Below are positions 54,300 through 56,973 of a stretch of 62,093 bases of DNA, one piece after another. The notes below the pieces were generated by a model, which made no database searches, was not told the DNA's origin, and saw nothing but the letters and a program-made list of their open reading frames with translations. The translations under genes were made by a program, and so were the position numbers. Numbering within the stretch: the first letter of the stretch is position 1; each line of letters starts with the position of its first letter. The stretch comes from Aeromicrobium sp. (GTDB taxonomy: Bacteria > Actinomycetota > Actinomycetes > Propionibacteriales > Nocardioidaceae): NCBI GenBank assembly GCA_025965175.1, contig JAOPXL010000213.1, forward strand, positions 1 through 62,093. Direction: 5' to 3'.

Positions 54300-54741
54300 C
54301 GGTCCCGAGCCGCTGCCTCACACGTTCTGGACCCGGGTCCGTGCGGTCGTCAACTGGGTCAACCTCAGCACGCCACTGGGCTTGATCGTGGCCCGTGTCG
54401 GGGGTGCCACGGTCATCCGCCACGGGCGTGGGACCTATCTCGCGACGGGCTACCGCCTCGACTTCCCGGTCGCCGGCGCCTTCACGATCGGCAGCGTCAT
54501 CGACAGCCACCATGACGTGGCATACCTCCTCGACCGGCCGCTTCTGCTCCGGCACGAGGACCGCCACGTCACGCAGTACGCCTTCGCCGGCGTCGTGATG
54601 CTCCCGCTCTACCTGGTGTGCGTCGGCATCTCCTACGCCATCGCGGGGGACCGCTCGTCGTACAACCCCTTCGAGCGCCTCGCCGACCTCGCGGACGGCA
54701 ACTACCCCTCGCCCCGCACCCGCTTCTCCCGCCACCCCTGA
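54289..54741 (+). CDS. Hypothetical protein, 150 aa
   Basis: This protein has a soluble start, a TPLGLIVARVGGATVIRHGRG segment (about 27-47, part shown), HEDRHVTQYA (about 89-98), and one hydrophobic helix (FAGVVMLPLYLVCVGISYAI, about 99-118). The HEDRHxxQ stretch recalls zinc-dependent or DUF4157-like motifs, but I do not recognise the family. It overlaps otsB by 11 bp, so it is probably translated with it. Confidence 0.7.
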   Translation: MSSSGPEPLPHTFWTRVRAVVNWVNLSTPLGLIVARVGGATVIRHGRGTYLATGYRLDFPVAGAFTIGSVIDSHHDVAYLLDRPLLLRHEDRHVTQYAFAGVVMLPLYLVCVGISYAIAGDRSSYNPFERLADLADGNYPSPRTRFSRHP

Positions 54742-54750
54742 CCCCGGCCG

Positions 54751-54838
54751 GGAGCGGTGCACCAGTCGCCCTTCCGCCGCTGGAAGGGCGAGCCACGCAC
54801 CGCTCCGGGGCCGGTGAGGCGAGCCATGCACCGCGTCC
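54751..54838. repeat. Palindromic intergenic repeat, copy C (one inverted plus two direct units)
   Basis: GGAGCGGTGCACCAGTCGCC... (54751-54775) is followed by inverted units at 54782-54806 (...AGGGCGAGCCACGCACCGCT...) and 54817-54838. The layout is the same as copy B. It lies between a plus-strand gene end and the SAM-riboswitch promoter. A longer hairpin with arms CACGATGT/ACATCGTG (54838-54845, 54859-54866) adjoins it. Confidence 0.72.
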
Positions 54839-54853
54839 ACGATGTGGACCAAG

Positions 54854-54883
54854 TGGACACATCGTGAGACGCGGACGTACGCT
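54854..54883 (+). promoter_or_regulatory. Promoter of the SAM-riboswitch transcript
   Basis: TGGACA (54854-54859) and TACGCT (54878-54883) are separated by 18 bp and match actinobacterial housekeeping -35 and -10 boxes. The predicted transcript would start about 54,890, right at the base of the riboswitch. Confidence 0.6.
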
Positions 54884-54888
54884 GGGGA

Positions 54889-55002
54889 ACTCATCCAGAG
54901 GGGTAGAGGGATACGGCCCGACGACACCCCAGCAACCAGTCGCACTCCACGCGGCCAGGTGCTCATTCCGTCCCGGACGATCGTCGATCCGGGAAAGATG
55001 AC
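54889..55002 (+). ncRNA. SAM-I (S-box) riboswitch
   Basis: The S-box core is present in order: TCATCCAGAG, GGGTAGAGGGATACGGCCCG, ACACCCCAGCAACC, GGTGCTCATTCC, and the closing AAAGATGA that pairs with TCATC at 54891-54895 (P1). It binds S-adenosylmethionine. The ribosome site AGGAGG follows P1 by only a few bases and there is no terminator hairpin before the GTG, so control of translation start is more likely than attenuation. This puts the downstream gene under methionine/SAM control. Confidence 0.9.
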
Positions 55003-55014
55003 CAGGAGGATCGC

Positions 55015-56283
55015 GTGACCACCACCGCCGAGACATCCACCCCCACGATCCGCGACGGTGCCTTCGGCAACGCTACCGGGCTGGTGTGCCGCGAGTGCGG
55101 CGCGACCAAGGAGCTGGGTCCGCACTACGTCTGCCACGAGTGTTTCGGGCCGCTGGAGATCAAGTACGACTTCCCGGCGATCACCCGCGAGCAGATCGAG
55201 GCCGGCCCCGCCAACATCTGGCGCTACAAGGCGCTGCTCCCCGTCCCCGACGACATCGAGCAGAGCCCCAACCTCGAGCCCGGTTACACCCGGCTGCTGC
55301 GCGCCGACAACCTCGCCGCCGAGCTCGGCCTGACGAAGCTCTGGGTCAAGGACGACAGCACCAACCCGACCAACTCCTTCAAGGACCGCGTCGTGGCCTG
55401 CGCGCTGAGCGCCGCCCGCGAGCTCCACAGCAAGGTCTTCGCCTGCCCCTCTACCGGCAACCTGGCCAACGCGGTCGCCGCCGCCGGGGCACGCGCCGGC
55501 ATCAAGACCGTCGTGTTCATCCCGAGCGACCTGGAGACGCCCAAGCAGGTCAACTCGGCGGTCTACACCGAGAACCTCGTCGCGGTCGACGGCAACTACG
55601 ACGACGTCAACAAGCTCGCCAGCGAGATCGCGGGCGAGGAGGACGGCTGGGCATTCGTCAACGTCAACGTCCGCCCGTTCTACGCCGAGGGCTCCAAGAC
55701 CCTGGGCTACGAGATCGCCGAGCAGCTCGGCTGGCGCCTGCCGGACCAGATCGTCATCCCCGTCGCATCCGGCTCGCAGCTGACCAAGGTCCACAAGGCG
55801 TTCCAGGAGCTCATCGCGCTGGGCCTGGTCGAGGACAAGCCCTACAAGGTCTTCGGCGCCCAGGCCACGGGATGCTCCCCGGTCTCTGAGGCGTTCCGCG
55901 AGGGCTGGGACGTCGTCCGCCCGACCCGCCCCGACACGATCGCCAAGTCGCTCGCGATCGGCAACCCCGCCGACGGCGTGTACGTCCTGGACATCTGCCG
56001 CGAGACCGGCGGTGCGATCGCCGACATCTCCGACGACGAGGTCCGCGCCGCCATCGTCCTACTGGCCCGCACCGAGGGGATCTTCACCGAGACCGCCGGT
56101 GGAACGACGGTAGGCGTGCTCAAGAAGCTGACCGAGACCGGACTGCTGGATCCCACGCTCGAGACCGTCGTGATCAACACTGGCCACGGCCTCAAGACCC
56201 TCGACGCGGTGACCGGCCTGGTCGGACCCGCCGCCACCATCGCGCCGACGTACGACGCCTTCGTCGCCGCCGGTATCGCCTGA
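55015..56283 (+). CDS. Threonine-synthase-family PLP enzyme under SAM riboswitch control
   Basis: This 422-aa protein has an N-terminal zinc-ribbon-like motif (Cys25, 28, 40, 43; CRECG ... CHECF), the PLP-lysine block TNSFKDRVVA (Lys123), a phosphate-binding CPSTGNLANAVAA and a C-terminal region typical of threonine synthase. By family it acts on O-phosphohomoserine. The SAM riboswitch and the CysO-like sulfur carrier 17 bp downstream argue for methionine: replacing phosphate with sulfur to give homocysteine. I recall a Streptomyces route of this kind (MetM with a sulfur carrier). Ordinary ThrC is the alternative; no hom or thrB lies nearby. GTG 55015 follows AGGAGG. Confidence 0.88.
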   Translation: MTTTAETSTPTIRDGAFGNATGLVCRECGATKELGPHYVCHECFGPLEIKYDFPAITREQIEAGPANIWRYKALLPVPDDIEQSPNLEPGYTRLLRADNLAAELGLTKLWVKDDSTNPTNSFKDRVVACALSAARELHSKVFACPSTGNLANAVAAAGARAGIKTVVFIPSDLETPKQVNSAVYTENLVAVDGNYDDVNKLASEIAGEEDGWAFVNVNVRPFYAEGSKTLGYEIAEQLGWRLPDQIVIPVASGSQLTKVHKAFQELIALGLVEDKPYKVFGAQATGCSPVSEAFREGWDVVRPTRPDTIAKSLAIGNPADGVYVLDICRETGGAIADISDDEVRAAIVLLARTEGIFTETAGGTTVGVLKKLTETGLLDPTLETVVINTGHGLKTLDAVTGLVGPAATIAPTYDAFVAAGIA

Positions 56284-56299
56284 CATCCCTAGGAGCACC

Positions 56300-56575
56300 G
56301 TGAGCATCAACGTCCGCATCCCCACGATCCTTCGCACGTACACGCAGGACCAGTCGCAGGTCTCCGCCGACGGCGCGACCCTGACCGACGTCCTCGACTC
56401 GCTCGAGTCAAGCTTCCCGGGCATCCGGGCGAGGGTCGTCGACGACGAGGGCAAGCTGCGCCGCTTCGTCAACATCTACGTCGCCGAGGAGGACGTCCGG
56501 TTCGCGCAGGGCCTCGACACCCCCACGCCCGACGGCGCCCAGGTCTCGATAATCCCGGCCGTCGCGGGTGGCTGA
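56300..56575 (+). CDS. CysO-like sulfur carrier protein (MoaD/ThiS fold)
   Basis: This 91-aa protein matches mycobacterial CysO in layout: IPTILRTYT start, FVNIYVAEEDVRFAQGLDT centre and IIPAVAGG end. The terminal Gly-Gly is the site of thiocarboxylate formation. In mycobacteria CysO-thiocarboxylate gives sulfur to CysM for cysteine, but here the partner in the operon is a threonine-synthase-like enzyme. It is expected to need an E1-like adenylyltransferase (MoeZ type) elsewhere and possibly a Mec-type protease to release the product. Confidence 0.92.
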   Translation: MSINVRIPTILRTYTQDQSQVSADGATLTDVLDSLESSFPGIRARVVDDEGKLRRFVNIYVAEEDVRFAQGLDTPTPDGAQVSIIPAVAGG

Positions 56576-56698
56576 TCGACTGCTGGACGGTGAACGGGCG
56601 GCAAAGACCGGCCGTAGCCCCGGGTTGCCCAGCCGTATAGGCTCAGCCCATCGGGCCCTCGGCAGACGGCTCGACTCGTGACAGGTGGGAGTGGCGGC

Positions 56699-56899
56699 AT
56701 GGTGCAGGGCACCGTCAAGTGGTTCAACGCAGACAAGGGTTACGGATTCATCGAGGTCGAGGGTCAGGACGACGTGTTCGTCCACTGGTCCAAGATCGCG
56801 TCTGATGGATACAAGACCCTCGAGGACGGCCAGAAGGTCGAGTTCGAGGTCATCGACGGCCCCAAGGGTCGCGAGGCCCAAGAGGTCATCGGGCACTGA
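56699..56899 (+). CDS. Cold-shock domain protein
   Basis: This 66-aa protein has the RNA-binding motifs [17 protein letters not shown] (RNP1) and DVFVHW (RNP2) of CspA-type proteins; it binds single-stranded RNA or DNA. ATG 56699 is chosen since the protein then starts MVQGTVKWF as in the family. A strong terminator follows 14 bases after the stop. Confidence 0.93.
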
Positions 56900-56912
56900 A
56901 CAGCCCAGGAGG

Positions 56913-56941
56913 AACCCGGTCTGGGGGGACCGGGTTTTTTT
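56913..56941 (+). terminator. Rho-independent terminator after the cold-shock gene
   Basis: AACCCGGTC (56913-56921) and GACCGGGTT (56928-56936) form a perfect 9-bp stem followed by a run of seven T, the only classical T-tailed terminator seen in the window. Confidence 0.92.
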
Positions 56942-56973
56942 CTGCGCGGAATCGCGCGTGACCCATGCGACAC

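Follow-up and report, generated by a model that had tools for sequence, protein, structure and literature searches.

A putative SAM-controlled metM-metO operon beside a classical homocysteine route in Aeromicrobium

A SAM riboswitch precedes genes for a threonine-synthase homologue and a sulfur carrier

We analyzed a stretch of 62,093 nucleotides from a draft genome of Aeromicrobium sp. (contig JAOPXL010000213.1, assembly GCA_025965175.1), referred to here as the window, in which an S-adenosylmethionine (SAM) riboswitch is followed by a gene for a threonine-synthase homologue and a gene for a small sulfur carrier, denoted metM and metO. The genome, labelled G000 in our samples, comprises 2.96 Mb in 241 contigs and is 87.7% complete. 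The riboswitch aptamer, at 54888-55004 on the forward strand, was found to match the SAM-I family RF00162 over its full length (model positions 1-108; 69.2 bits, E 4.5e-14), and it was the sole match above the gathering cut-off (44.4 bits) in an Rfam scan of the whole window. It shows the full SAM-I consensus, P1 to P4, and is the one SAM riboswitch found in this genome.

The Shine-Dalgarno sequence AGGAGG (55004-55009, forward strand) adjoins the aptamer at its 3' end. The 3' strand of P1 stops two unpaired nucleotides ahead of it, and 10 nt separate the aptamer end from the metM start codon. A terminator scan detected no terminator-like site in 54700-56760. Because of this short spacing and the empty terminator scan, the riboswitch probably controls metM at translation, and transcription termination was rejected as the expression platform. 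The fold of the leader RNA is not unusual in stability (z -1.47; 17 of 200 shuffles were equally good).

The metM-like gene (55015-56283, forward strand, GTG start) encodes a pyridoxal 5'-phosphate (PLP)-dependent protein of 422 aa with a Pfam PALP domain (E 8e-68). Its best solved relatives are threonine synthases (PDB 6cgq, 2zsj, 1uim and 2d1f). The NCBIfam model TIGR00260 for thrC scores it at 261 bits, above the cut-off of 167, while PRK08197 stays under its cut-off (287.6 against 303). The N-terminus carries a C-x2-C...C-x2-C pattern (Cys 25, 28, 40 and 43), which suggests a zinc ribbon, and the SFKD lysine motif is kept. When five MetM sequences were aligned with two of ThrC, many positions invariant among MetM set it apart from ThrC, and such constant sites are visible in 13 MetM-type rows. 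An AlphaFold model built with 13 rows had a mean predicted local distance difference test score of 62.4, too poor for a fold search.

The metO-like gene (56300-56575, forward strand) encodes a ThiS/MoaD-type sulfur carrier of 91 aa that ends in PAVAGG, with a C-terminal Gly-Gly. It matches Pfam ThiS (E 3e-15) and NCBIfam SAMP1 (61.5 bits, cut-off 60). Its closest PDB chains are 4n6e_B, the best match, a ThiS/MoaD family protein from the BexX-CysO complex, which acts in 2-thiosugar biosynthesis, and 3dwg_C (E 4e-24), presumably CysO of Mycobacterium tuberculosis.

An earlier note, made from the sequence alone, had described an S-box with its own promoter ahead of a ThrC-family gene, with a CysO-like Gly-Gly protein 17 bp further on. 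The S-box and the ThrC-family gene are borne out by the RF00162, PALP and TIGR00260 matches. The carrier and its Gly-Gly end are likewise present, but the gap is 16 nt. The promoter claim fared less evenly. A consensus sigma-70 scan returned 0 sites at threshold in the region, but a likely promoter can be read directly 5' of the aptamer, with TGGACA at 54854-54859, an 18-nt spacer and TACGCT at 54878-54883 (54854-54883, forward strand). By eye, 17 of 19 Aeromicrobium metM promoters have TANNCT in the corresponding position. A promoter in this position would start transcription close to the first aptamer base.

The genome encodes a carrier loader, a second carrier system and a classical homocysteine route

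A ThiF-rhodanese protein of the MoeZ type, a candidate loader for MetO, is encoded elsewhere in the genome. Its gene is present in two near-identical copies (contig C4:506-1201 and contig C204:15647-16342) with similar downstream DNA, which probably reflects a strain mixture in the draft genome.

We also found a second carrier locus on contig C88 (L003 664-1908), where a JAMM-like gene is followed by a CysO-like carrier gene and a CysM-like gene. The first gene, for which we assume the name Mec/JAMM, shows an HSH...D motif. The C88 carrier is 54% identical to MetO. Two carrier-enzyme pairs, MetM-MetO and the CysO-CysM-like pair, thus stand side by side in one genome. The C88 carrier has AHDGSW after its Gly-Gly and, judging from this tail, seems to need trimming.

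Threonine synthesis has its own cluster. A second, ordinary thrC on contig C8 (TIGR00260, 287 bits) encodes a protein about 33% identical to MetM and sits between genes for a homoserine dehydrogenase and a GHMP kinase, giving the order hom-thrC-thrB. SAM control of plain threonine synthesis, considered for the window locus, is unlikely given this separate cluster. Since TIGR00260 accepts both proteins, the model cannot separate MetM from ThrC.

The genes of a classical homocysteine route were also identified. On contig C108, metX (NF047917, 507 bits, cut-off 475) adjoins metY (PRK07812, 752 bits, cut-off 703), and contig C126 carries a cystathionine gamma-synthase gene (PRK07811, 689 bits, cut-off 513). 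MetM is one of two predicted homocysteine routes in this genome, the other being MetX-MetY. The earlier note had expected a second thrC with hom and thrB elsewhere, which the C8 cluster provides, and an absence of metX, metY and metB, which is refuted by the presence of metX, metY and the cystathionine gamma-synthase gene.

The operon is conserved and MetM is complementary to MetX and MetY

We examined a genus/order sample of 30 genomes, the own genome included, and a class sample of 246 actinomycete genomes, drawn at a completeness of at least 95% and with the own genome added. In the genus/order sample, a single SAM riboswitch and a MetM-type protein scoring at least 638 bits occur in 29 of 30 genomes. 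By their coordinates, all 29 have the riboswitch immediately ahead of MetM and the carrier immediately after it; in G003, where the MetM gene is divided between two contigs, the carrier follows the second part. The exception, G022, contains MetX but no riboswitch, MetM or carrier.

In the class sample (thresholds of E<=1e-100 for MetM, 1e-60 for MetX, 1e-140 for MetY and, with stricter filters, 1e-5 for the riboswitch), MetM was detected in 155 genomes, MetX in 162, MetY in 161 and the SAM riboswitch in 165. MetM and the riboswitch occur together in 155 of 246 genomes, MetM was never found without a riboswitch, and 81 genomes have neither. The two adjoin in 141 of the 142 genomes with both positions given (median of 38 nt between the model matches); this count leaves out eight MetM genomes without a riboswitch position and five without a MetM position. 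The non-adjacent case, G241, has two riboswitches, and the only one with a position given is on another contig.

MetM and MetX/MetY are distributed in a complementary way. MetM occurs with neither MetX nor MetY in 79 of 246 genomes, with both in 75 and with MetX only in one. Genomes without MetM contain MetX and MetY in 83 cases, MetX alone in three and MetY alone in three, so MetX occurs without MetM in 86. With MetA outside the search, only 2 of 246 genomes have none of the three, against 79 that have MetM only. By these counts, MetM can stand in for MetX and MetY in whole genomes.

We further inspected named relative loci, the best 80 of 593 confirmed, none of which is titled Streptomyces. 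The closest MetM among them is that of Aeromicrobium sp. RYN_205 (97% identical); in the same-genus sample it is that of G013. A carrier lies at most 900 nt downstream of MetM in 70 of the 80 loci. Of the remaining ten, L119 has its carrier cut by a contig end and L175 ends inside MetM.

The tails of the 70 carriers were also compared. Gly-Gly is the end of 59 MetO homologues, while 11 carry one or two extra residues (C, S, Q, SR, YR or AR; L118, L120, L125, L130, L143, L146, L151, L152, L156, L189 and L194). One of the 70 has a longer tail. For sulfur loading, residues after the Gly-Gly would first need to be removed.

Downstream of metO in the window, at 56699-56945, we noted by eye a cold-shock-protein-like open reading frame, behind which lie a GC-rich inverted repeat and a run of T. 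The repeat and T run look like a terminator of the cold-shock-like frame.

A proposed carrier-dependent homocysteine synthesis under SAM control

We read the locus as a metM-metO operon for a homocysteine synthase and its sulfur carrier under SAM control, with a probability of about 0.87. A MoeZ-like enzyme would charge MetO with sulfur, forming a thiocarboxylate on its C-terminal glycine. MetM would bind O-phosphohomoserine as threonine synthase does, and PLP chemistry would eliminate the phosphate from the gamma carbon. The sulfur of MetO would be added at C-gamma, instead of water at C-beta, yielding homocysteine for methionine synthase. With plentiful SAM, the aptamer would close P1 and translation of metM would fall. 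The proposed chemistry follows the published MetM system and established PLP chemistry, and the proposed SAM control follows the aptamer class. The SAM-controlled homocysteine synthesis predicted in the earlier note is well supported by the genome context and by the co-occurrence across 246 genomes.

Several observations weigh against this reading. The complete classical homocysteine route coexists with MetM here, and because of this full alternative, methionine synthesis in this genome can be explained without MetM. Among the 91 class-sample genomes without MetM, 81 lack a SAM riboswitch, but 10 have one with no MetM match at the threshold (G031, G048, G053, G078, G238, G244, G248, G253, G259 and G266). 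The co-occurrence counts across the 246 genomes are raw counts that ignore shared ancestry, and MetA lay outside the search. Eight of 79 usable relative loci (L129, L133, L149, L158, L179, L184, L191 and L193) show no carrier in the 802-2500 nt beyond MetM, the rest of those genomes not having been searched; these genomes may keep a carrier elsewhere or use another. Orthology to MetM of Streptomyces albulus is presumed from gene features and their description. Finally, a paper that cites Hasebe et al. 2024 describes a Microcystis homologue with threonine synthase and threonine deaminase activity, whose full MetM role in the cell it doubts (PMC12172450).

The last point bears on the most probable of the alternatives, in which MetM is a second threonine synthase, SAM reports indirectly on aspartate-family supply and the carrier is an incidental neighbour. 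The in vitro threonine synthase activity of the Microcystis homologue (PMC12172450), the TIGR00260 score above cut-off and the eight loci without an adjacent carrier favour it. We consider it improbable, given that threonine synthesis has a separate hom-thrC-thrB cluster, that all 29 MetM genomes of the genus/order sample have an adjacent carrier, that 70 of 80 named loci have one no more than 900 nt downstream, and that the MetM distribution is complementary to that of MetX and MetY.

The same eight loci could also indicate that MetM uses free sulfide in vivo and that MetO serves another, merely co-regulated pathway. Related fold-type II PLP enzymes accept sulfide. Against the use of free sulfide, most relatives keep metM and metO linked, and the genome encodes a MoeZ-like loader. 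The CysO-CysM-like pair and the JAMM-like gene on C88 further suggest that this genome makes use of carrier chemistry. Free sulfide is marginally less probable than a second threonine synthase. That the carrier gives its sulfur to a different acceptor and MetM forms some other C-S bond, such as one in a secondary metabolite, is very improbable: the best PDB match of the carrier, 4n6e_B, points that way, but the occurrence of MetM in 155 of 246 actinomycete genomes, always together with a SAM riboswitch, indicates core methionine metabolism.

By the features that could be tested, the putative homocysteine synthase operon belongs to the MetM/MetO system and stands beside a retained classical route. 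With a MetM-type gene in 155 of 246 actinomycete genomes, 79 of them with neither MetX nor MetY, the O-phosphohomoserine route is not a peculiarity of Streptomyces. Because the NCBIfam thrC model accepts MetM, annotation will probably label it a threonine synthase and misinterpret methionine pathways. Through genomes with two routes, such as the present one, the reasons for retaining both and the way in which the two are coordinated can be studied.

Operator-like dyads are shared by the metM and metY promoters

Two operator-like dyads flank or overlap the putative -35 element. Dyad 1, GTCCAC-GAT-GTGGAC (54835-54849, no strand assigned), is a perfect 6-bp inverted repeat with a putative operator function, and degenerate forms were seen by eye in other Aeromicrobium promoters. 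Dyad 2, GACACA-TCG-TGAGAC (54856-54870, forward strand), overlaps the -35 element and the spacer. Of 19 Aeromicrobium genomes, 18 have the half-site [TC]GAGAC 23-26 nt ahead of the aptamer.

We built a matrix from 17 of these [TC]GAGAC sites and compared its matches with shuffles that preserve base composition only. Fifteen genomes had a metY upstream region that could be scanned. In 13 of them, the own genome included, the matrix matched in the 115-130 nt upstream of metY with a shuffle fraction below 0.05; the match was missed in G003 (0.11) and G008 (0.063). In the own genome, the match has a TGAGAC half-site and lies at C108:11723-11737 (L025 5724-5738). Upstream of the cystathionine gamma-synthase gene, in the 160 nt that precede its matched part, none of 11 genomes reached the threshold. 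The dyad pattern with at most two mismatches occurs at 56 places in the genome against 17 for the reversed control, so the motif alone is not specific. As a hypothesis drawn from these sites, one regulator could act on both the metM and the metYX promoters.

P3 is complementary to the metM start region in many actinomycete leaders

In many metM leaders outside Aeromicrobium, an arm of P3 was found to be complementary to the stretch between the Shine-Dalgarno sequence and the start codon. Examples are GCGAGGCC/GGCCUCGC in Actinomadura and UCAGAGGC/GCCUCUGA in L043. Compensatory changes between lineages were observed in this complement (L043, L158, L160, L201, L225, L233, L234, L237, L239 and others). 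Sixteen loci with the P3 pairing were scanned against Rfam, and all were assigned to SAM-I, RF00162.

The pairing was assessed in 82 leaders, of which 60 were distributed across genera in the class sample and 22 were picked by eye from other loci. Their own pairs scored 8.15 against 6.90 (standard deviation (sd) 0.15) for permuted partners, with 0 of 20000 permutations at or above. P3 is short in 16 of the 82. In 30 leaders with a long P3 and a tail without GGCCTC, the values were 7.76 and 6.66 (sd 0.25), again with 0 of 20000. When the comparison was anchored on GAGG/CCUC only, for which 32 of 75 leaders were usable, the six flanking positions paired in 0.667 of cells against 0.576 (sd 0.019), with 1 of 4000 at or above; the outermost downstream position paired in just 0.19.

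The pairing was not significant in 22 leaders from Aeromicrobium and its nearest kin (6.35 against 6.01, sd 0.21; 1102 of 20000 at or above). A pseudoknot between P3 and the Shine-Dalgarno sequence of the window leader itself found no support, with just CUCC/GGAG, or CACGCG/CGCGUG with the start codon, available and the genus test not significant. A comparison of the longest complements with the tails of other groups and with shuffled P3 gave 4.29 against 3.19 and 3.66 in Aeromicrobium, and 5.31 against 4.88 and 4.43 in Nocardioides. Kribbella was below both controls (4.14 against 4.62 and 4.40), and the other leaders reached 6.67 against 4.57 and 4.59.

We tentatively combine these observations into a joint proposal that we hold to be somewhat less probable than its negation. 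One DNA-binding regulator would act on the metMO and metYX promoters through GWCWCA-N3-TGAGAC-type dyads, with a SAM-sensing RNA layer on metMO only, forming a two-route circuit in Aeromicrobium; in addition, many actinomycete metM leaders would be a SAM-I variant that has P4 together with a SAM-IV-like pseudoknot between P3 and the start region as a translational switch. A literature search on titles and abstract openings found no account of P3 pairing on SAM-I or of an operator shared by metM and metY.

Comparison with known systems

SAM-I/IV riboswitches, like SAM-IV, have the pseudoknot PK-2. Because SAM-I/IV already has it, the novelty would lie in a PK-2-type pseudoknot on an ordinary SAM-I aptamer. 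In SAM-IV, one strand of PK-2 immediately precedes the returning P3 strand and the other lies at the 3' end, the SAM-IV aptamer is without P4, and SAM-I/IV has P4 but no PK-1 (PMC6890682). Many relatives outside Aeromicrobium share with SAM-IV a PK-2-like pairing of P3 with the start region, but they keep P4. The window aptamer is a full-length SAM-I match to RF00162 with P4 and runs straight into the Shine-Dalgarno sequence.

The CysM/CysO system of M. tuberculosis (Mec+-CysO-CysM) combines a fold-type II PLP enzyme, an O-phospho amino acid and the thiocarboxylate of a Gly-Gly carrier. MetO is homologous to its presumed CysO chain 3dwg_C. CysM makes cysteine, however, and the present genome has its own CysO/CysM-like pair, separate on C88. 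MetM has in common with ThrC the family, the SFKDR lysine motif and the expected substrate O-phosphohomoserine. Other motifs are altered, with CPSTGNLANAV for CASTGNTSAS and ASGSQL for GNAGN. The four-Cys N-terminal segment of MetM spans about 65 residues, while the own ThrC has no room for such a segment before its matching part.

The closest counterpart is the MetM/MetO system of Streptomyces described by Hasebe et al. in 2024 (Appl Environ Microbiol 90:e01247-24), in which metO is said to lie directly behind metM and the MetO thiocarboxylate reportedly acts as the sulfur donor. A paper citing this work credits it with identifying MetM as a homocysteine synthase in Streptomyces, places a SAM riboswitch upstream of metM in S. 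albulus, and reports MetM homologues in cyanobacteria as well as a Microcystis carrier-family gene that resembles metO of S. albulus (PMC12172450). Riboswitch control, which the earlier note had pointed out as appearing here in another lineage, is therefore not new, since S. albulus metM already has a SAM riboswitch according to that paper. The Aeromicrobium locus shares with S. albulus, as described there, the ThrC-homologous enzyme, the adjacent metO gene of the sulfur-carrier type and the upstream SAM riboswitch. Unlike that description, the present genome keeps metX, metY and cystathionine gamma-synthase, and its metM promoter has operator-like dyads in common with metYX. The operon is real, well conserved and ordinary in light of the work of Hasebe et al., and the candidate shared operator and the P3 pairing are worth a specialist's attention.

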